Part shown: in pieces, positions 1 through 64,000 of the stretch
Layout: every line of letters begins with the position of its first letter
How positions within the stretch are numbered: position 1 is the stretch's first letter
Assembly (NCBI RefSeq): GCF_022201045.2
Contig: NC_068562.1
Span: 6,678,001-6,742,000, forward strand
DNA: 64,000 bases
Direction of reading: 5' to 3'
Source: Citrus sinensis
Taxonomy: Eukaryota; Streptophyta; Magnoliopsida; Sapindales; Rutaceae
Made by a program: the position numbers and the translations under genes
Notes under the pieces: model-generated
Database searches by the model: none
The model's input: only the letters and a program-made list of their open reading frames with translations
What the model was told of the DNA's origin: nothing

Positions 1-398
1 AACCCAAATATCCTGTTTCCACTACACAGAAACAATAGAAACCCAACAAGTACCAAACTTTACACTCAATTGAACAAAATTTAGATAACAATCCTCTCAT
101 CAACTCAAAAACATTCCAATAATCAAGTATATAATAACAAAAACGCTAATTTCACGTGCATACCTAAACAAAGGCGATGACTAAAAAATTGATTTCTGAA
201 TTAATTATTTCCTCCCACAAATTATAGAAAAAGAAGAAACCGGACCTAACAAGAGGGGTTAGATTATAAATTAGGGGTATTGTCAGGGGCTTGATCGATA
301 TTTTGCAAAAAAAAAAAGGAGAAAACAGAAAAGTAGTTGGTATTGTAATATGTTTTCCTCTGGTTTCAGGCGGTTTTGGTGAAGAAGAATTATTTACA
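1..398. repeat. Left edge of duplication unit A
   Basis: This stretch is nearly identical to 15887-16288, the matching part of unit B, down to shared runs such as the A-run near 308. The match stops where the 399-3605 element is inserted and resumes at 3606. In unit B this sequence lies next to a decayed coding fragment (15480-15705), so the window probably opens inside or beside the unit A version of that gene. I see no complete gene here. The 74-codon ORF at 291-515 crosses the insertion junction and is not a gene. Confidence 0.85.
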
Positions 399-52739: not shown

Positions 52740-54724
52740 TCTTACAGCATCATCAATACGGCAGCACTTTTGTTTTCCAGGGAAGCAAACGCGGGATTTA
52801 TATATATATATATATATATATATAGACAGTAGACACAGACACACAAATTCAGCAACGTGAATGTTGTCCCAGTTGCATTCGGAAAAGATTACGACATGTC
52901 GTTTCGTTGTGATAAACAGAAAAAAGCTTTGTTTTATTTTCAGTACTACCGTCGTTAGGAAAAACTAGTGGGTGCTGCTGATGTGGTGCTTCCCCAATAA
53001 AAATTTGACACATATTGATGTTAATTTCCTTTTTCTTTTATTAAAAGAAAATCACCCCTTTTCATTTAATCTCTTTTTATTGTTCCATTCAAAATATGTT
53101 TCTCTAAAAATCGTTTTCAAATTCAAAACTCATTTCTCAATTTTAGAATAAATATAAGTTCCCCTAAAAATCTTCTCATCCAAACACTATAAATTCTTAA
53201 CCGAAATTTCTCTAATCCGAAATCAACATATTCATTTCTCAAATTTATGTCACAATGCCAATTTCAATATTCTAAAAACTTTCAATAATGAAAGTGTGCT
53301 CAAACATATATATACAGCTAGACATATGAGTGGTTTCCAATAAGGGATCCGTCATATTAAAGTCGATGTTGAGTTACAAGATCAAAAATTATATATTTTA
53401 ATACACTACATGATAAAATATACTGTATTGGAATTAACTGATTTTAGTATAGATAGAAATCCCTGATTAGAACATTCCCATTAGAACATATACAAAAGCT
53501 TTGAATAAAAGGGATAATAAGTCGTGAGTCAGCCAAACCTCACTTTCATTTTGTGTAAAGCTCTCGAGATTGAAAATAGACGACTGTACTCAATTTTTCT
53601 TCAAAACAATAGCCTCCTTGGCGCTCATGTCTACATTGATATGTGTTTTAAGTATTAACAGCTCCCGACAATAATAACTTAATAAAATTAAGGTATTCAT
53701 CTAAATTAAGTCTGAGCACATTCTTAAGTGTTGACGGAAGGCTTTTGTTTACCCGTTCATAATAAACTCTAATATATGTTAGCACTGTGCGTTCGTAGTA
53801 AACTTTAATATATATGTTGGCACTACTCAATTTCTACTACTTGATATATCTTGATTTTTTATCATGGTGGCTGTATGGCTGATTTGTGCCCTGCTCTAGT
53901 CCGTCAGTCATAGCTTCCCGACTTTATTTTTCTTTAGGTTTATTTCATTCTTAATTAATATTGGCCGCAAATAAACTTGTGGGTTTGGTGTCGGGAAGAG
54001 ATTACGCAAATGTCAATAATTAGATTGAATATTAACACTCACAAACTTCTTGGCGCAGGGGAAAGAATGGTAGACCCAAATGTCAATCCGCTCAACGGGC
54101 ATGTCGGTGCAAGTAAGAATGGGCGTGCCTTTGATCAGCCCATTAGGATTAGACCCACTAGTCTAGCTGTCAAGGCCCTAGGGATGTCCAAAATGTTTAG
54201 CCCGGTCAGGTTTTGGATTTTGCAGGCCGATCCGGGTCCAAATGGTGGAACGAGCGAAGCTTAAAGGTGATTAGTTTAGTTTAGTTCCCCCGACTTCAAG
54301 CGCTTGCAGCTGGATGCTGATCCACCTGCAGAAGAAACACCTATCAATAGCATTGATTATTTTAACAACTATCAGTGACCAACTGATGATTTTTACCTAG
54401 CAAACTGATAAGAAATTATGTGTACCTAATAAATATTAATCGTCTAAGTAACGGTTAATGCACTATTCAATCAACTTTTTTTATTATAACTCAACACGTC
54501 CATTGTTATTTTAATTTCTCCTCACCCTAATCACTCATAGACAAACTTCCATGCGTCCCAAATTTATTATATGTATATACTCTAATCGATCACTTAAGCT
54601 TGTAGTCCAATAATATTCATGAATTCGAACCGTAAGAATAGATTTCTTCACGTGTATTAGTGGAAGTAAATTAACTTTAAAAAAAAAAAGGTCTTACACT
54701 CCACCCCAAAACCATTTAAAATTA
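52740..54724. other. Intergenic DNA between the TFIIIC gene and the Ulp1 element
   Basis: No gene recognised. Two direct copies of a 37-39 base unit (GTTCATAATAAACTCTAATAT-like, ending TGTTAGCACT or TGTTGGCACT) lie at about 53755-53825. The block 54040-54260 is richer in G and C than its surroundings, with an ORF (53977-54264) of no known motif, perhaps a degraded repeat. TA repeats at 52799-52823 lie just upstream of the TFIIIC start. Confidence 0.5.
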
Positions 54725-54762
54725 GGGTCATCCTGTGGTGCCACAGTGACACGGTGCCACAG
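54725..54762 (+). repeat. Candidate left terminal inverted repeat
   Basis: CCTGTGGTGCCACAGTGACA followed by CGGTGCCACAG, aligning with the inverted 63946-63982 segment through TCC.GTGGTRCC, then CAC.GTR. It also has internal near-palindromes (GGTGCCAC twice). Confidence 0.5.
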
Positions 54763-55848
54763 TTTTTTTGTCTTTATTCTGTGAAGCCATTGGATGGTTA
54801 CTCGTTCAATCCAACGGTTTAAATTAATTATTGGAGAAAGGCCGCGAGAACTGACAACCTTTGTAGCCGGTTTTGGGTGAGTGTAATACCATCTAATAGT
54901 GAGCGTGCATTTCAGGATCTTTGATCTACGACATACCGTTTCAGCGATTTCATTTGAAAATCAATCTGTAGACAAAAAGTGAACACACGAAATTGGTATT
55001 CCTGGATCGCAATTATTGGTGGAATATTAGCAAACGGTTGATGTGTACATGAATATGTCCGCGCAGTTGTAGGGAGGCGATGGTGAAATAAAAAAAAAAA
55101 ATTCCCGGCATGTGCATTCGAAGGAATTTCTGATTCTGAAAGTGTGGGCATATCGAATGATCCAACGTAGTAGGTAATTCGATATAAACTTGCAATTTGT
55201 TTTAGTTGGAATATTTATAAAAGACGTTTTTAGGGTTAGTTGAATAGTTGGTGGAAGAGTTCAGTAAACGAGTGGTAATGGGGAAAATTTTCGATTAAGT
55301 ATGTAAACAGGGGTCGTCAAAGAATGTGATGTTACTAGGGAGGACTGATTTGAGGAATCTCACTGCACTAATTGCCGGTTTGAAGGCACAAGAGGGACTT
55401 AAAAGTGTTCGACGATGAATTGAAATTTGTTAGTAAGTAAATATCTTTTGTAAGTATCAATTAGTTATATGGGTAATTGATGAGGACATACATTTATGGC
55501 ATGTTCTTATAATGAAATTGTTAACTTTGTTTTATCTTCTGGTCACCAATAATGTATGGATGAGATGTTAGTGTTCAATTGTTAATTTGATTGTTGGAAT
55601 CAATTAGCATGAATGTGTTTCTTAGAAAATCAAGAATGTTGATGGGCATTTAATGTGTGAAGCCCCTCGAAATGAGTCTATGAAAATGATTGATTAACAT
55701 TGTAGACGGTGGCATGGTTGTTACAGATAAGTCTGTTTATAGACTGTGATCTTATTGTTGTGGTTTTACACATACCCTGTAATTAAATTCTGTAAAATCA
55801 GAATGGCGCAGTTCGTTAGAAGCACTCATTTATAATTTCAGTGCAGCA

Positions 55849-58800
55849 ATGAAGGTAGGGGAGGTTCGCAAGCGAAAATGTAGGGACGTAAACAGCTTGA
55901 ACGAAGATATGGAAGGCAATCGAACAATAGAACGTAATACCCATTATGGATTCATCAGCTATTTGTAAGTATGTTTACTATCCGAATAACTAAATTTTAT
56001 CAATGACGAGTGGATTGGAAATGATTTGAGTTACTTTCAGTGGTGCAACTGTGCGTAAAATGAAGGCAACAGATGCAAACACCAGCATTACAAGAGAGGT
56101 GCGTTAAATGGAAATAAAATTTAGTGTACCGCAACACCTTTTTAATTGGCAATAAGGTGTATGTCTGTGTGTTTCTATTAACTGCAGGTTCGAAGGGAAA
56201 TTGCGACGTCATTTAAAAATTTACCACCAAAGATGAAATGGAAGTACAAAGTCCGAGTCGAACAAGCAGTCAAAGGGGAAGCAACTAACACATATTTTAC
56301 ACGATGTGCACCAGACAGATTGGCAGCAGCTGTTACAAATCTATCTGATGAACAAAGAGCAGCTGTATGTGAAATGGGTATGGGGAGCGTGCTTGAGTTG
56401 AATAGTGGTAGGCTGAAAAGGAAGCTTTGTGGTTGGTTGGTAGATAGGATTGATGTATGTAGGCGCGTTGTAGTTTTGAATGGTAATGAGGTAGAGCTCA
56501 GTGCTAATAGCTTTGGTCATGTCATGGGATTAATAGATGGGGGCATGCCTTTAAGATTACAGGGTGACATCAAAGAAGTTGAATCATATGTAAAGATGTT
56601 CAGTGCATCATCTACAGGAATCAACATCAAGAAATTGGCAGAAATGTTGAGTAATTCGACGGCAGCCGATGATAGGTTCAAAGTCACATTTATGTTGTTT
56701 ACTCTATATACTGTTCTATGTCCCCCTGGTGGAGTACACATAAGTTGTAATTTCTTATTTTCTTTGAAAGATGTGAACTGTATCCAGAAGAGGAATTGGG
56801 CCACATTTTGTTTTCATAAATTTCTTGAAGGCATTACTAGGTACAAGGAAGAGAAATTGGCATACATAGGCGGCTGTCTTTTGTACTTAGAGGTGATATC
56901 GCATCTTGGAATGATATAGTGTCAATATTTTCCTTCACTTTGTTCAGTTGAGTAACTGACTATAATTTGCATTGTTGTTTTTGTTTATTCCAGATGCTTT
57001 ATTTTAATTCTATAGTGTATGGAAAAGTACAAAGAGACAGGTCTATGTGTCCCCTGGCCTTGTGGAACGTAGATGAGATAAAGCGGTTGATGAAATGGAT
57101 AGAGAATAAAGGTGGTTATAGTAGCGATGAGGTAATCTGAAAAAGGAATTGTAAATTTGTGGGATTCTATGAAAGCAAATAATATGCTTACAATGAAAAA
57201 CGTGCGATCCATGAATACTGCTTTTCAATATGTCCTTGCTTTACATTTATTGTAGTTGGATGTTACATATATATTTGGTTCAGCACTTTACTTATAACTT
57301 CGTACTTGTAAAATTGTTTTACTAGATACGAGTCTGTGCTGCATCTGTAATAAAGGCGAACTCAAGGTCAGATGGATGCAGTATGGCTGTGGAAGAAGAT
57401 TTTAGAGACTCGGATGTTAGACAGATGACAACAGCCCCGGGAATGACGAAAATAAAGTCAGTTAGTCAATTGGATAAGGCAGTAGTGATATCAAGTAGGC
57501 CATCAGGATATGTTGAAAATTTAAAGACGGATGGATCGTGCCGCAGTAACCATGGCAATAACGATAAGGGGAAGGACTGGAGTGATGCAACCAAAGGAGA
57601 GGGAGTTTGCACCAACTGTGAGAGTAAGCAATTGTACAAAAGTGCAGCAAGTGGCAGTATGTACCAGAATAATGAAATCAAGGAAAAAGATGTTTGTGAA
57701 GATGCACAACATATGGATTTAATTGATGTAGCAGATTTTGTCATGGAGACTCAGACGTCCCCACCATGCAGTGAAAGCTTGCATAGTAACATAAGGATTG
57801 AGGTTATCTGTAACTAATAAAAGTTAAATCTGAAATTTGCATCTTCTTTTAGTTGTTTTTGGTTAACCGAATGTAATTTATGTTTTATAATTTTGTAATT
57901 ATTATGAGGAAAATATGTTGCAGGAGCCTGCTGTGGTGCAGAAGTGTTCAGAACCGAATAAAAAGACTGGGAATGTAGTCCATCCAAAGTCACCACTTAA
58001 TCAGATAGGTGCTGGCAGAGCACGTTATCGGGTTGGACCATATGTGATGCAAAGACCTTTGAGTACTGATGACGAGATGTTGATTAACTTCTGCATGGAT
58101 GAAAATTTGAATAAGGGGTAACGTATTACTTATGTCGTTGAATTAGTACTGGCATTCATATAAAAAGTTACTTGATTGTGTTTGAGCTTCGAATAAACGG
58201 ACTTAATTGTAGGAAATCAATAATTATGGCAAAAATGTCTGCATGATAGATTTTCCGTTGCAGGGAAATAGTTTTTAAGACGAACTTCAATTGCATCAGC
58301 AGACATGATATTATGTGTCTCTCTCCTAGAAGTACAATCAATGTGAAGGTACAACCACCTTCTGTCAAGTGCTGTACTTGTATGAATAATACATACACAT
58401 TTTATAATGATTGCTCTTGGAATTTAATGGGGCTTGACGTTTTTGTTATTTGTTTATATGTTGAATGAAGTGAATACCCCTTACATGCAAGTGTTAATAC
58501 TCGTACTTTTCAGATTGTTTCTGCTGTCTCAGAATTGTTATCTGCGAATGCGAGTGTAAACGTGGGAAACAGTAATTTCAGCCTTTTTCTGCCAGCGTAT
58601 TCTGCTGTAAGGACTTTGTGTTATATTGCAATATTAAAATTTTATCCCCTAAGGGACAGTTTAACATAAAATTTCGTGTGTTCATTCAATATGGTGCATC
58701 TGTTTACTATGCATGTAAGTTGAGATATTGTTCTTGTAATTACATTTAACTAGAGCATTACAAATATTTGTTATTCAAGTTTGGCAACCCACTATTTCCA

Positions 58801-59873
58801 TTGCCTATAATTTTAGTTTCGGCTGTGATAGCGTTGATGTTCTATAAACTGTACAGTTGCACGATAACATCAGTGGGGACCCCACAGACCTTACTTTTGG
58901 TATTAAACAATTTATCAGTGGTGATTTATACCTGGCGAATATTGGTTCGTGTAAGCAAGTAAGCATTTTTTACTTAAGCAATCAGCAAACCTCGTTTTTA
59001 GTTAATTTTGATGTTATCTGTCAGTTTATTTCACCCTGGTATTGCAATCATCAATAGATTTTTGTCCCGGTGAACCATGGTTTTACACACTGGTACTTAT
59101 TGGTTGTATTAATATACGAAATGCGGGTGGAGATATGGGATCCACTGCCCACTGCAATGAAGTCACAAATGTTCGTTGTTGAATGCAAACGAGCGGTGAG
59201 TTACCAATGTAGATGCCAATCGAGTGTACTTTGTTGCCAAAAAAAATTACTTATAAATGAACCATTGTTGTTGTAAATAATCCTCCTTTGTTTTAAAAGG
59301 AAGTGTCAAATATTACTATTGTTATTACTGCAATCTATCGATTGACGGATGTTCCTGCAGCTACAATTCATTGAGATGGCGTTGCAACATTGTGGCTCAA
59401 ATTGTTTATCGGGAAGGTTAAACATGAGCGAGTTCGTAATCCAGCTTTGTACCAGGCAGGCCAGTATACGTAACGAATCTGATTGTGCACTATATGTTAT
59501 GTTGATGATGGAGAGACATAAAATGTGGTCATGCCTTTCGGAGGCAGAGGTGCGTAACATTTTTAACTGTTCAATGCTATAACCCAGGCCGTTAATATTA
59601 ATTATGTATCCATTCAATTTTTGCTGCCTTGTACTTATTGTGTTTGTTCATTTCATTCAGATAAAGTTTGATTCAGATAGTGAGAGGGCACGCATTCTGA
59701 TAGATCTCATGACATACAGTTTCAACTGTTTGAAGGACAATGTTCGTTTGAAGGCTGAGAAGCATCGATCGCGTGTTGACGATGAAGCCCATTCAATTTA
59801 TGAAGCGATTGAAAAGAAGCGCGTACGACAGCTTCGGAGTGCGAGCCAAATGGGGCATGGTCGCCGCCATTAG
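55849..59873 (+). CDS. Transposon-borne Ulp1/SENP-like cysteine protease
   Basis: Twelve exons with GT-AG junctions and unbroken phase: 55849-55964, 56041-56098, 56188-56892, 56994-57131, 57326-57802, 57924-58117, 58264-58348, 58514-58606, 58857-58958, 59058-59195, 59361-59549, 59661-59873, giving 835 aa. Residues 1-60 are basic. Residues about 75-290 form a helical plant-mobile-element region (DUF1985-like), seen with RLAAAVTNLSDEQRAAVCEMG and CGWLVDRIDVCRRVVVLNG. A polar linker (about 305-510) follows, then the C48 peptidase domain: His667 in THWYLLV, Asp684 in EIWDPLP, Cys744 in NESDCALYVM. The oxyanion Gln, normally six residues before Cys, appears to be Ile738. Ulp1 enzymes remove SUMO or related modifiers. 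The role of transposon versions is unknown. Confidence 0.82.
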
Positions 59874-60480
59874 CTGCATTTGATTTGACGTTCTATTGTA
59901 TAAGTGCATCCATGCTTTCCGAAAAGAAAAAATTACTGGGTTTGACAGTTGCAGTTCATCATTCCAAAAAGCACAATCAACCACTGACAATTGTGAGTGA
60001 TAAACAACTTATGTTTTGTTGCTGGCATATAACAATAAAGTTTCCATCGTGGATGCCGCAGTGTCTCACTACTGAACTTAATCATTTATGAGTTTACATT
60101 GCCGTCAATTTTTAATTTGTCAAGACGGCTGTTCCTGGAGTATTATATCAGTACATGCTGTTAGCTGAAATAACATCTTCTCTGAATTCTGCATATTATA
60201 TGATACTGATACTTTGGCCTGGCCAAGTTACTGAAATATTCATTTTATGTTGTAGTCCTGAGGAAGATGCTTTATGTAGTAATTGAACTCAACGAGGGAT
60301 TGAATGAAGTTACGCAAGTTGTGCTTATTTAAGCTTGGCATAGGTATAAAAATTGTTTCTCAACTGCCTCTTAAATATTCTTTTTTTTTGTTGCAAAATT
60401 AACGGATACAGTGGGAGCAAAAAAATAGTTGTATTAAATCCCCAACCTCTAGATCTTTTTGGAGTAGCGCCAATATTCTT

Positions 60481-63117
60481 TTACAAATTCCAAATGTGGG
60501 CGTAGTTAGTTGGTGTAGAAGATGAGGTTGCAATGCAGTTGGATACACTTGCAAAGGCACTTGTGTTTAGAGTTGGGTCGGTTGATTGACTTGCTGTACT
60601 GGCTGAAAATTGCTGGAACCATGACTCTGATGTAGGAGAAAATTGTCTACCATTTTCTCCTATTTGCTGCCGCGACATAACGTTAAGGTATCGTGTGGGT
60701 TGTTGCGGCGCCTGGTTTGTGTCTGCTGCGTCTGTCGCATTTGGTCCCATTACATTACTACCACAAAAAAATTGCATGCAATGGCTTGAACAGTCATCCA
60801 GCTGCTGTCTTGTCCCTCCTCGTTTTTTGCACTTTCTAACATTGTGCCCTCGCTGACCACATCTGCTACATTTTCGTTGTTGTGGTTGTCCCATCTTCGT
60901 TTTTTTAACTGAACCTTTGGTAAGAACAACTTCCGGATCTTGTACTACTGTGTCTCTCCTCGCTAAAGGTTGCCTTGCTGGTTCTTCGGTGTGAGACATT
61001 GCCTGCAACTTCAAAGTCAACTGGTGAATATCTGTAATTGCCACATTGTATGCGGCCAAACTTAATCCAGCGAATCTTAGCAAACTTCGACATGCTGCAT
61101 ATATTTGGCCAATACGAGCCTGCTCCGTCATGTAATGTGATTTATTACAACTTATATCGGACGAAGTGTGAGCTTTTATCTTTGCAGCTTTACTCCATCG
61201 AGAAAGAATCATCGAACTTGGAATTTCTGTCATATTCTGAGCCTTGCACACAACAAATGAATGCGAGCATGGAATTCCAATTGTCTCAAGCAACTTGCAG
61301 GTGCAGGATAAGGTTTTGCTGGTCTCATTAATCACTACTTTCACCTCTTTTCCAACCGATCCAAACCGCCTAACCCTGTACGTTGTTGACATTATATCCC
61401 GGTCACACATTTCTGTAGTTAACAACGCTTCCTTGTCGATTTCTTCTCGTACGAGGCGAAACATGGCCCTTGTGAACTTTTCAGCTGCTTGCTGCTCATA
61501 CATCTTTAAATGTGTAACCAAAACAGGACGTCCATCAGAACTGTTAAAGTCATCCTTCCCCTCTGCTTCCCTTTGTCGATCCATTAGTCGGTCCATCTGT
61601 TTAACAAATTCTATCAATCGGAGCCTTCTATTCACGTAATGGTTTAGATACGCATTCATTCCTTCTGACCTTTGAGTGCTTCGCATTCCCCCAAAAAACT
61701 TTCCACGCAAATAAGCCTCAGCCCACATATGTCTATCTTCAAACATCTTAACAACCCATTCATTTGCGGCAACATTATGGTTATCCACCATCAATTTCCA
61801 TTTTCGGTCAAATTCTTCTTTTGTGTAAGCGTTCATCATGCAGCGGCGGAATTCCGTTGTAAATTCAGGGTTTTGAATATTTGTTTGAGCATTTCGGACC
61901 AAATGCCAGCAACACAACCTGTGTGAAGCTTCTGGAAATGTCTTGCTTATTGCATTTCGCATTGCTTTGTCCCCGTCGGTTACAACTGTCCTCGGATGCT
62001 TGTTGTTCATTGCTGTCATCAATGTCTCTAACAACCATGTGTACGTGTGTTCTGTCTCATCTGACAACAGAGCAAACCCGAATACAATTGTTCGCCGATG
62101 GTGATTTATCCCCAAAATAACCACGAAAGGCTTCCGATATGCATTGGTCTTGTAAGTTGCATCGAATGCAATAACATCACCAAATAATGCATAATCTGCG
62201 CATGATCCGCCATCGCACCAAAACAAGTCCCCAAGTCGATTGGAACTAGTGATTGTGAAGTCATAAAAGAATGACGGATCCGAGCTTTTTCTTCCATCAA
62301 GATATGATAGGCATGTCTCAGCGTCTGATTCTTTCAACGATGCATGCCTCGTGGCAGCCAGCCTATTTTCAACATCCCTCCTATTATACCCAACCTTGTC
62401 GTAACCTCCTGATCTGTCAACCATAAACTCGTGAATTTGAGATGGCTTCACGCCCACTTTATGTAATGATAAAGCTGCTGACAAGTCGGGACCCGTCACT
62501 CCTCTGTGAGACCTAATGTGGTGCACTAGCTGAGGCGGTGTTAAGTTGTGATTGTGGACGCGTTGAAGAAAACTACACGCCCATCGGCCAGTATCTTCAT
62601 TGTAAATAACTCGAAATTGTGCTCTGCATCCCGTCCTTGTAACAGCCTTGGCTTCTCGCCCTCTGCATCTGTTTTCCATGTGCTTTGCAGCCCTGAATCC
62701 CTGTCGGCTGCAAACCCACGTTCTGCCAGTGATATTCCCCTTCACATTTCTGCGTTTATTGTGTTTCCGAATGCCGAAGCCAACTGTCCTTGCATATTCT
62801 TGGTAGCATATGCCAGCCTCCTCTTCACTTGCGAATTCTTTTGCTAACATTTCCGGAAGCGCACTCTCAGCCTCACTACAATCTTCAGTACACTGCTGTT
62901 GTTGAGTATCGTTCTCCAACTGACCACTTCCTCCACGGTTGTCGCCTTCGATGTTCAACTGCGGTTCAGCCACCATTCCTGCCCCTTCATTGTCTGTCTC
63001 CACTTCATTGTGAGCTGATGCATCTGAGCTGCGTTCATCGTCGGAAGTTACATTAATCTGGTACTGCATATCATCTCCGTCATACAATCCTTCGTCTGAA
63101 TCAGTCATTGTGGTCAT
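60481..63117 (-). CDS. MULE transposase, FAR1/FRS-like (MURA family)
   Basis: Single-exon 878 aa protein. I start at the first ATG (MTTMTDSDEG), as the codons before it begin with TTG. An acidic N-terminus (1-90) precedes a FAR1-type WRKY-GCM1 zinc-finger DNA-binding region, about residues 94-192 (AKEFASEEEAGICYQEYART through WACSFLQRVHNHNL). The MULE DDE domain has Asp319 in AFDATYKTN, Asp381 in VVTDGDKAM and Glu485 in QRSEGMNAY. It has a CCWHL motif after the second Asp. A SWIM zinc finger (SCTCKLLETIGIPCSHSF) is at about 605-620, and a CCHC knuckle (CSRCGQRGHNVRKC) at 750-763. No stop or frameshift interrupts it and every catalytic residue is present, so it could be active. Domesticated FRS genes look similar, but location beside an Ulp1 gene and the end repeats favour a transposon. 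Confidence 0.88.
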   Translation of the reverse strand: MTTMTDSDEGLYDGDDMQYQINVTSDDERSSDASAHNEVETDNEGAGMVAEPQLNIEGDNRGGSGQLENDTQQQQCTEDCSEAESALPEMLAKEFASEEEAGICYQEYARTVGFGIRKHNKRRNVKGNITGRTWVCSRQGFRAAKHMENRCRGREAKAVTRTGCRAQFRVIYNEDTGRWACSFLQRVHNHNLTPPQLVHHIRSHRGVTGPDLSAALSLHKVGVKPSQIHEFMVDRSGGYDKVGYNRRDVENRLAATRHASLKESDAETCLSYLDGRKSSDPSFFYDFTITSSNRLGDLFWCDGGSCADYALFGDVIAFDATYKTNAYRKPFVVILGINHHRRTIVFGFALLSDETEHTYTWLLETLMTAMNNKHPRTVVTDGDKAMRNAISKTFPEASHRLCCWHLVRNAQTNIQNPEFTTEFRRCMMNAYTKEEFDRKWKLMVDNHNVAANEWVVKMFEDRHMWAEAYLRGKFFGGMRSTQRSEGMNAYLNHYVNRRLRLIEFVKQMDRLMDRQREAEGKDDFNSSDGRPVLVTHLKMYEQQAAEKFTRAMFRLVREEIDKEALLTTEMCDRDIMSTTYRVRRFGSVGKEVKVVINETSKTLSCTCKLLETIGIPCSHSFVVCKAQNMTEIPSSMILSRWSKAAKIKAHTSSDISCNKSHYMTEQARIGQIYAACRSLLRFAGLSLAAYNVAITDIHQLTLKLQAMSHTEEPARQPLARRDTVVQDPEVVLTKGSVKKTKMGQPQQRKCSRCGQRGHNVRKCKKRGGTRQQLDDCSSHCMQFFCGSNVMGPNATDAADTNQAPQQPTRYLNVMSRQQIGENGRQFSPTSESWFQQFSASTASQSTDPTLNTSAFASVSNCIATSSSTPTNYAHIWNL

Positions 63118-63945
63118 AGGTTCACCATCAGATAACGTCAAATTTCAGGTGGTTGAGATATTTTCTTCCTCTGTTAAAATATGTTTTGTCCGCAAGTTTA
63201 TTCTTCTGCTTTCAGTACCTTCTACGAAACTTCTTTCAATAGGGTAGGCGGCACAAAGAAGCTTCAAGTTGGTGTCTTTTCCCGCGTGCAAGGATTTTTA
63301 AAACGCGAGGGAGCCCTTCACTTACCGCAGCCCAGCAGTTCAGCCCCGTCCCTTGGCCACTAAGACACGTGATATCATTCCCGAAGAAAATAATAAACTG
63401 GGTTATTTTTATAAACTTCCCCTGAGGTTTGAGGATGTTGCTAGTAGATGGGGAAACTTATTTTAATTTTAAAAGACCCCGTACCATAATTTATCTGGGG
63501 TTTTTATTTTTATTGACTAACTGTTCACTTTGATAAGACAATATTACCCGTAATAATAATTTATAGACTGACACAACTAAAGTACAAGGGCTGAAGCTTA
63601 TGATGCGTAAATCACTGACTTTATTAACATTTTCGTCCTTTACAAGTACAAATATTCACAATTTTATAAGTAAATAAAACAATTATGTTCACCATGATCA
63701 AGTTTTTTATCTTTCCTTACAATATTAAAAAAAAAATTACATATGTGCAAATTTATCAAAATTATGCTAGTATTTTTCTAATAAATTTTCTGGTTTTTCT
63801 CAGTCAATTCGCTGTGATTTTGTGTATGGCGCTTGCCGGAAAACGGTAACGAAACATTTTGAATGGGTAATGACGGGGATTGATAGTAAAAGTTTGTATT
63901 TCTTAAATTTTTTTACATTTGACAACTCACTAATTCATGTGGGGT

Positions 63946-63982
63946 CTGCCTACCGTGCAACAGGGTACCACGGAATTTTGTC
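63946..63982 (-). repeat. Candidate right terminal inverted repeat
   Basis: Inverted partner of 54725-54762, read on minus: GACAAAATTCCGTGGTACC and CTGTTGCACGGTAGGCAG. The host junction beyond it is only 18 bases long in this window, too short to test for a target duplication. Confidence 0.45.
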
Positions 63983-64000
63983 TTTTTCCAACAATTACAC

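Follow-up and report, generated by a model that had tools for sequence, protein, structure and literature searches.

This locus raises the question why a transposon should carry a gene for a protease of the SUMO pathway, and to what kind of element such a gene belongs. The window analysed is a 64,000-nucleotide stretch of Citrus sinensis (contig NC_068562.1, here C7:6678001-6742000), which was compared with the genome of 299.7 Mb in 11 contigs; coordinates above 64000 are window numbering extended on C7, outside the window. In the original prediction, positions 54725 to 63982 had been read as an intact two-gene Mutator-like element (MULE), consisting of an Ulp1-like (ULP) gene and a transposase gene framed by candidate inverted ends. 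These two genes make up the left quarter of a 35,302-bp cut-and-paste DNA transposon of the Mutator superfamily, of the FAR1-type transposase lineage, which runs from window position 54725 to coordinate 90026 (C7:6768026) and carries at least six genes instead of two. Its features are the following:

54716-54724, no strand: left 9-bp target site duplication (TSD) TTAAAATTA; right copy at 90027-90035, outside the window
54725-64000, plus strand: portion of the element within the window; the remainder reaches 90026
54725-54872, plus strand: left terminal inverted repeat (TIR), imperfect, 78% identity over 128 bp to 90019-89894, local alignment up to base 148
55849-59873, plus strand: coding sequence of the ULP gene, 835 amino acids, 12 exons, frame kept, 11 of 11 introns GT-AG
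ULP exons 1-6, plus strand: 55849-55964, 56041-56098, 56188-56892, 56994-57131, 57326-57802, 57924-58117
ULP exons 7-12, plus strand: 58264-58348, 58514-58606, 58857-58958, 59058-59195, 59361-59549, 59661-59873
60481-63117, minus strand: FAR1-type MULE transposase, 878 amino acids without a stop, FAR1 and MULE domains by Pfam
67996-68367 and 69218-70243, minus strand: F-box/LRR/FBD gene, given as the FBD-bearing open reading frame (ORF) and the F-box ORF, respectively; Pfam FBD in the former, F-box and LRR_At5g56370 in the latter
73579-74154, minus strand: M3, ORF of 191 amino acids with a CCHC-like end (by eye)
77537-78103, plus strand: GRF-like ORF, named by eye
83958-86408 (C7:6761958-6764408), plus strand: M2, MuDR-type MULE transposase-like, 816 amino acids, open; Pfam DBD_Tnp_Mut, MULE and SWIM
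89877-90026, outside the window: right TIR

Both termini were fixed by alignment with further copies of the element, which exist on C3, C4 and C5. The left boundary falls at 54722, 54724 and 54714 in these three comparisons, respectively, and the predicted left end at 54725, flanked by TTAAAATTA, is exact. The predicted right end at 63982, in contrast, is crossed without a break by the matches to C3 (up to 73343) and C4 (up to 86313, the end of the compared DNA); as the ends of the other copies do not coincide there, the framing by inverted ends at this position was wrong, and the terminus moves to 90026, where the same TSD follows. Used as a genome query, the left end retrieved an inverted right end at C7:6767894-6768019 together with counterparts on C4, C3 and C5. 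Ten of the 22 matches listed belong to the termini of the four copies and of a 1,354-bp non-autonomous derivative (L038, C7:3075633-3076986), in which both ends are present and which has its own 9-bp TSD, TATTATTGA. The reciprocal search with the right end yielded 11 matches, made up of the two ends of each of the four copies, the two of the derivative and one weak extra place. All four copies are flanked by perfect TSDs that differ from each other (C7 TTAAAATTA, C3 AAATTGTTG, C4 CAAAACGAA, C5 TTTAAAATG), and with these four TSD-flanked copies, one of them deleted, the 35.3 kb represent one mobile unit. A DDE-type MULE domain, 9-bp TSDs and imperfect TIRs are all present, in keeping with the Mutator superfamily.

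The copies on C3 and C4 are about 99.6% identical to the window copy and the copy on C5 about 94-96%. The C4 copy measures 35,296 bp and the deleted C5 copy 15,307 bp, while the C3 copy spans C3:23763696-23811678; the alignment of C7 with C4 over 35.3 kb contains 81 substitutions and 11 gaps. Between 63400 and 67400 the element is AT-rich and harbors crossing inverted repeats (63400-63738/66903-67243 and 63942-64022/67273-67358). This patch, perhaps composed of relics of nested insertions, may be what had been taken for the right end.

After its match to 73343 the C3 copy is interrupted by a 12,524-bp long terminal repeat retrotransposon (TG...CA, repeated end of about 1.4 kb, 5-bp TSD TGGCG). 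The 12 weaker matches of the left-end search (70-83%; e.g. C5:31203811, C7:14706468, C5:18660378) are perhaps ends of other related elements.

The recent activity that had been proposed for the element is supported by the perfect and different TSDs of all four copies and by the low divergence of three of them. Over 18,572 aligned bases, the C7, C4 and C3 copies carry 23, 21 and 24 private substitutions, i.e. their divergence is star-like with about 0.12% each. A substitution rate of 2-7e-9 per site per year would date this divergence, very roughly, to 0.2-0.6 million years. C>T and G>A changes make up 17 of the 21 private substitutions in C4, the pattern expected for methylated DNA. Intactness holds for the window copy, where no lesion is found in any gene examined, but does not extend to the others: in C4, ULP, the FAR1-type gene, the F-box exon and M2 are each interrupted by a stop, with M3 and GRF open, and in C3 a single base is missing from ULP and M2 contains a stop, with the FAR1-type gene and the F-box ORF open. 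The C5 copy has stops in ULP and FAR1, and genome searches with each gene did not find M3, GRF or M2 in it; it is older than the other three and deleted relative to them.

The FAR1-type transposase gene is open over its 878 codons and convergent with the ULP gene, both as originally described. Its Pfam matches are PF10551 (E 1.1e-31) and PF00872 (E 1.1e-8), and by eye the motifs FDATYK (318), TDGDKAM (380), CCWH (402) and RSEGMNA (483) as well as a SWIM-like and a CCHC segment are recognized. The D, D and E residues are kept in all four aligned sequences; FDATY, TDGDK, CCWH and RSEGMNA are common to the sequences from C7, C4:8.84M and C5:9.23M, whereas in the C8 fragment TDGDR and RLEGMNA stand in place of two of these motifs, with D, D and E kept. 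In comparison with this C8 relative, five genes of the element show ratios of nonsynonymous to synonymous substitution (dN/dS) of 0.12-0.35, all below 1, which are rough at synonymous distances of about 0.75 to 1.7 and with C8 copies of ULP, FAR1, M2 and GRF that carry stops themselves. The value for the FAR1-type gene is 0.17; here and for M2 it was derived from whole-protein tblastn, and for ULP exon by exon, while the F-box gene was compared for selection with near-identical copies alone. The FAR1-type DDE protein would presumably be the one that cuts at the TIRs of about 78% identity and joins with 9-bp duplications.

At C4:8.84M (L012) and C5:9.23M (L013) the FAR1-type genes are open, but the ULP gene has Arg at the position of the catalytic His; the peptidase exons alone of these two ULP genes were seen within the DNA retrieved.

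The ULP gene lies opposite the transposase, and its predicted structure, with 12 exons that keep the frame across 11 GT-AG introns, is borne out. The protein contains a C48 peptidase domain (PF02902, E 1.1e-9), the catalytic triad of which is kept in the window copy as H667, D684 and C744; the catalytic His and Cys align to SENP7 (whole match E 0.0017). With the triad kept, the protein may be an active SUMO protease. Relative to C8, dN/dS amounts to 0.20 in the N-terminal part, 0.69 in the middle, 0.26 in the peptidase and 0.31 over the whole protein; between the C7 and C5 copies it is higher (0.72 and 0.61), as expected if the C5 copy is decaying. Judged by these ratios, the architecture is that of a conserved N-terminal part and a conserved peptidase around a fast-evolving middle.

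In M2, all five sequences compared carry the aspartates D391 and D455. The position which we take, following MULE motifs, to be that of the third catalytic acid is occupied by Glu in four of six sequences and by other residues in those from C9 and C6, and the His of the CxxH motif varies too. Because the third catalytic acid varies, M2 is probably an accessory, perhaps repurposed, protein. The AlphaFold model is poor (mean predicted local distance difference test score 46.7); its better part places D391 in a strand and D455 at a strand end. Versus C8, dN/dS is 0.19 for the M2 core and 0.25 for the whole protein, 0.35 for M3 and 0.12 for GRF; between M2 and four more distant relatives, synonymous sites have reached saturation or come close to it. 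The M3 and GRF ORFs have no Pfam match up to E 10, and both recur at the loci of relatives.

Ulp1-bearing MULE genes of this kind have been named KIU (PMC13317346), and MULEs with a ULP gene have been described in Arabidopsis, grapevine, melon and rice (PMC13317346, PMC2528002). VANC, the anti-silencing protein of other MULEs, is reported to be composed of conserved and variable regions, to bind motifs in non-coding DNA and to remove methylation (PMC5735166). A role of the KIU/VANC type would be the best available explanation for ULP and fits because its middle is fast-changing, in analogy to the variable regions of VANC. Taken together, we consider it rather probable that the locus is a 35,302-bp FAR1-type MULE with a KIU/VANC-like anti-silencing ULP and with M2 as a long-kept accessory. 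ULP would then be the element's own KIU/VANC counterpart, working at the chromatin of the element to undo silencing, perhaps by stripping SUMO from silencing proteins. M2, as its conserved position described below supports, would be a long-kept component and no late nested insertion, and it may serve as a DNA-binding accessory rather than as a cutting enzyme. More speculatively, the F-box gene may promote the turnover of a host defence or silencing protein, in the manner of polerovirus P0, an F-box protein that eliminates a silencing factor of its host.

Several observations weigh against this explanation. In close relatives the catalytic His of ULP is replaced, by Arg in L012 and L013, by Cys in L015 and by Gln in L017; the latter is also devoid of the Asp, and L016 has Gly in place of the Cys. 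By these replacements, the peptidase is not retained by every relative, though the ULP genes of L015, L016 and L017 also contain stops. The match to DUF1985, the domain that (or in its place DUF287) marks VANC proteins, is sub-threshold (18.6 and 20.7 bits versus a Pfam cut-off of 35.1; E 0.0019 for the whole protein and 0.00044 for exon 3, both short of the cut-off) and is weak or absent in the exons of four relatives. An enriched-word search of the element's 26.3 kb of non-coding DNA did not reveal a VANC-like target motif array. As to M2, both Asp residues are kept, as is the third Glu in four of the six sequences, so that loss of catalysis is unproven.

The 9-base word GGAGTGGGA/TCCCACTCC, the only one strongly enriched (10 occurrences versus 0.14 expected), was considered as a target array and rejected: apart from an outlier at 83.5 kb, it clusters at 65.9-66.8 kb in the AT-rich inverted-repeat patch. 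Tandem repeats in the element are AT-rich or short-period arrays alone.

The replacements in the triad could also mean that ULP is a pseudo-protease, in which the Ulp1 fold is kept as a module for binding SUMO or a partner and not for cleavage. Consistent with this, the peptidase parts that have lost the His (L012, L013, L015) or the Cys (L016) still show dN/dS of 0.26-0.29 versus C7. The triad of the window copy, however, is intact, and His and Asp are kept in all seven more distant ULPs, four of which (L045, L046, L048, L050) also have a Cys within a D-C-G/A motif. We regard the pseudo-protease as unlikely, but as an alternative to be taken seriously.

The standing of the genes to the right of 63982 follows from gene order at related loci. 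Locus tables were compiled by hand from search listings in which the best candidates were scored (M2 55 of 706, FAR1 64 of 953, ULP 150 of 204, F-box 118 of 139). Of the FAR1 and M2 rows, the neighbour table holds 64 of 67 and 54 of 57, respectively, the remainder being second pieces of listed loci; it also holds 71 of at least 153 ULP matches, weak or fragment rows being excluded. The gene-order table holds the 19 FAR1 loci of at least 51% identity, 13 ULP rows, 17 of 18 M3 rows, all 70 GRF rows and, for the F-box gene, 16 entries from 19 of 104 rows, three of them each merging two fragments. A convergent ULP gene is found within 15 kb at no fewer than 38 of the 64 FAR1-type loci (the best 64 of 953), which is a lower bound since the search with the DUF1985 exon overlooked some ULP partners (L012, L013). 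At 18 of the 64, M2 lies no more than 50 kb away with the expected side and strand, where about 0.0045 per locus would be expected by chance. Within the clade of at least 51% identity it is in place at 18 of 19 loci and missing from the deleted C5 copy alone; since this set contains the window element and its C3, C4 and C5 copies, the independent cases are fewer. All 19 listed M2 matches of at least 34% identity are situated in such elements, 18 next to FAR1 and one (C9:17.42M) next to ULP. M3 occurs at 13, GRF at 9 and the F-box gene at 9 of the 19 clade loci, where the counts of M2, M3 and GRF include three near-identical copies. The usual order is ULP> FAR1< (F-box) M3< GRF> M2>, with the F-box gene reversed at three loci and one C9 locus rearranged. 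Because order and side are conserved across the clade, M2, M3 and GRF appear to be long-standing parts of it.

This conservation is difficult to reconcile with the explanation that a 9-kb MULE acquired unrelated elements (a MuDR-type MULE and genes) by nesting not long before its latest burst, with passengers for extra genes. The inverted-repeat and AT-rich patches at 63.4-67.4 kb do resemble nested insertions, and the F-box genes of different elements vary in orientation and do not form one clade in a small tree (seven sequences, one weak node), the C7 gene being nearest to C9:27.80M (56%) and then to C5:29.10M (44%). M2, M3 and GRF, on the other hand, keep mostly the same order and orientation at 18, 13 and 9 of the 19 loci, for M2 down to 34-45% amino acid identity, and their dN/dS is below 1, which makes nesting already unlikely for these three. 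Overall, recent nesting is improbable. Repeated capture of F-box genes is unproven by the tree, and the reversed orientation at three loci agrees with it.

An ordinary two-gene MULE of about 9.3 kb, with flanking DNA to the right of 63982, would conform to the loci that have ULP and FAR1-type genes without a nearby M2: at none of the 45 FAR1-type loci of at most 50% identity is M2 in the expected place among the best 55 of 706 M2 candidates, weak M2-like genes being possible, and two of the 45 have a 27% M2-like match in a different arrangement. Here, however, C3 and C4 share the sequence from 63982 on to 90026, where it closes in the matching TIR and TSD, and the identical TSDs at 54716-54724 and 90027-90035 refute this explanation, which is left with hardly any credibility. 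Domestication as host genes would be in line with the descent of FAR1/FHY3-type host genes from such transposases and would have been indicated by a single syntenic copy. It is refuted for this locus, where several nearly identical copies lie on different chromosomes, each with a TSD of its own, and is practically excluded.

For the preferred explanation of a FAR1-type MULE with long-kept M2, the origin of the additional genes can be addressed by GRF-like matches elsewhere in the genome. At 12 of 35 loci they are convergent with MuDR-type genes (23-30% identity to M2), where about 0.1 would be expected, and since GRF-like genes adjoin MuDR-type genes in this manner, M2 and GRF are suggested to have arrived together from a MuDR-type MULE. 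In the giant element M2 and GRF are found on the same strand, unlike in the convergent pairs. A lineage of giant MULEs may tentatively be envisaged, and we hold it for possible rather than probable, in which a ULP and FAR1-type MULE acquired a GRF gene together with a transposase of the MuDR type and kept both; M2 would have turned into an accessory, and a counter-defence set, with the Ulp1-like protein on the SUMO side and the F-box protein, taken up more than once, on the ubiquitin side, would let a 35-kb cut-and-paste element stay mobile. As a MULE of 35.3 kb of which four TSD-flanked copies exist, three of these full-span and very similar, the element is a natural exception. Its genes provide concrete candidates for how a transposon might resist host silencing that depends on SUMO and ubiquitin, and the presence of two transposases raises the question how labour is divided between the FAR1-type protein and M2.

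GRF-like genes at 1.3-2.4 kb from a convergent MuDR-type MULE gene are seen, for instance, at C9:3457923, C2:6260436 and C9:15629438.

Among known systems, Kaonashi of Arabidopsis (KI/KIU) is likewise a MULE with an Ulp1-domain gene opposite the transposase (PMC13317346, PMC2528002, PMC6117577). Kaonashi, however, is described as a non-TIR element of three genes, whereas the citrus element has a FAR1-type transposase, recognizable TIRs, 35 kb and six genes or more, a second transposase among them; it is similar to KIU/Kaonashi but not placed in the Arabidopsis group with its non-TIR ends. VANDAL/Hiun (VANA, VANB, VANC) shares the combination of a transposase with a gene of conserved and variable regions as well as degenerate TIRs (PMC5735166, PMC10398659). 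It differs in that, in the citrus element, DUF1985 is weakly detectable, the target-motif array was not found by the word search and the anti-silencing role is a proposed one. CitMule, from citrus, also has a FAR1-domain MULE transposase with SWIM, 9-bp TSDs, degenerate TIRs and near-identical copies, but it measures 6.9 kb with one 5-exon transcript and the transposase in exon 1, and its accessible description contains no Ulp1, F-box or second transposase (PMC4334395). Abermu resembles the citrus element in its MuDR-type transposase with extra ORFs, its 9-bp TSD and its TIRs of 138-145 bp; at 8.2 kb it is called much larger than other MULEs, has one transposase gene, and neither GRF nor Ulp1 is named among its extra ORFs in the accessible text (PMC9168764). 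Pack-MULEs contain captured genes between MULE TIRs as well, but they are mobilised in trans, reach at most 7 kb in the cited set and hold mostly gene fragments, in contrast to the 35 kb, own transposase and whole genes of the citrus element (PMC6431247). Among the titles and abstract starts listed by keyword searches, with subscription papers mostly outside their scope, none described a MULE of about 35 kb or one with two transposase genes.

Further families of ULP and FAR1-type genes, with 41-42% identity to the window transposase and several mostly open copies each, are perhaps recent too. Their loci are:

C5:25816017, C5:25882421, C1:16235310, C2:9699080
C1:19704595, C2:27892750, C4:26103548

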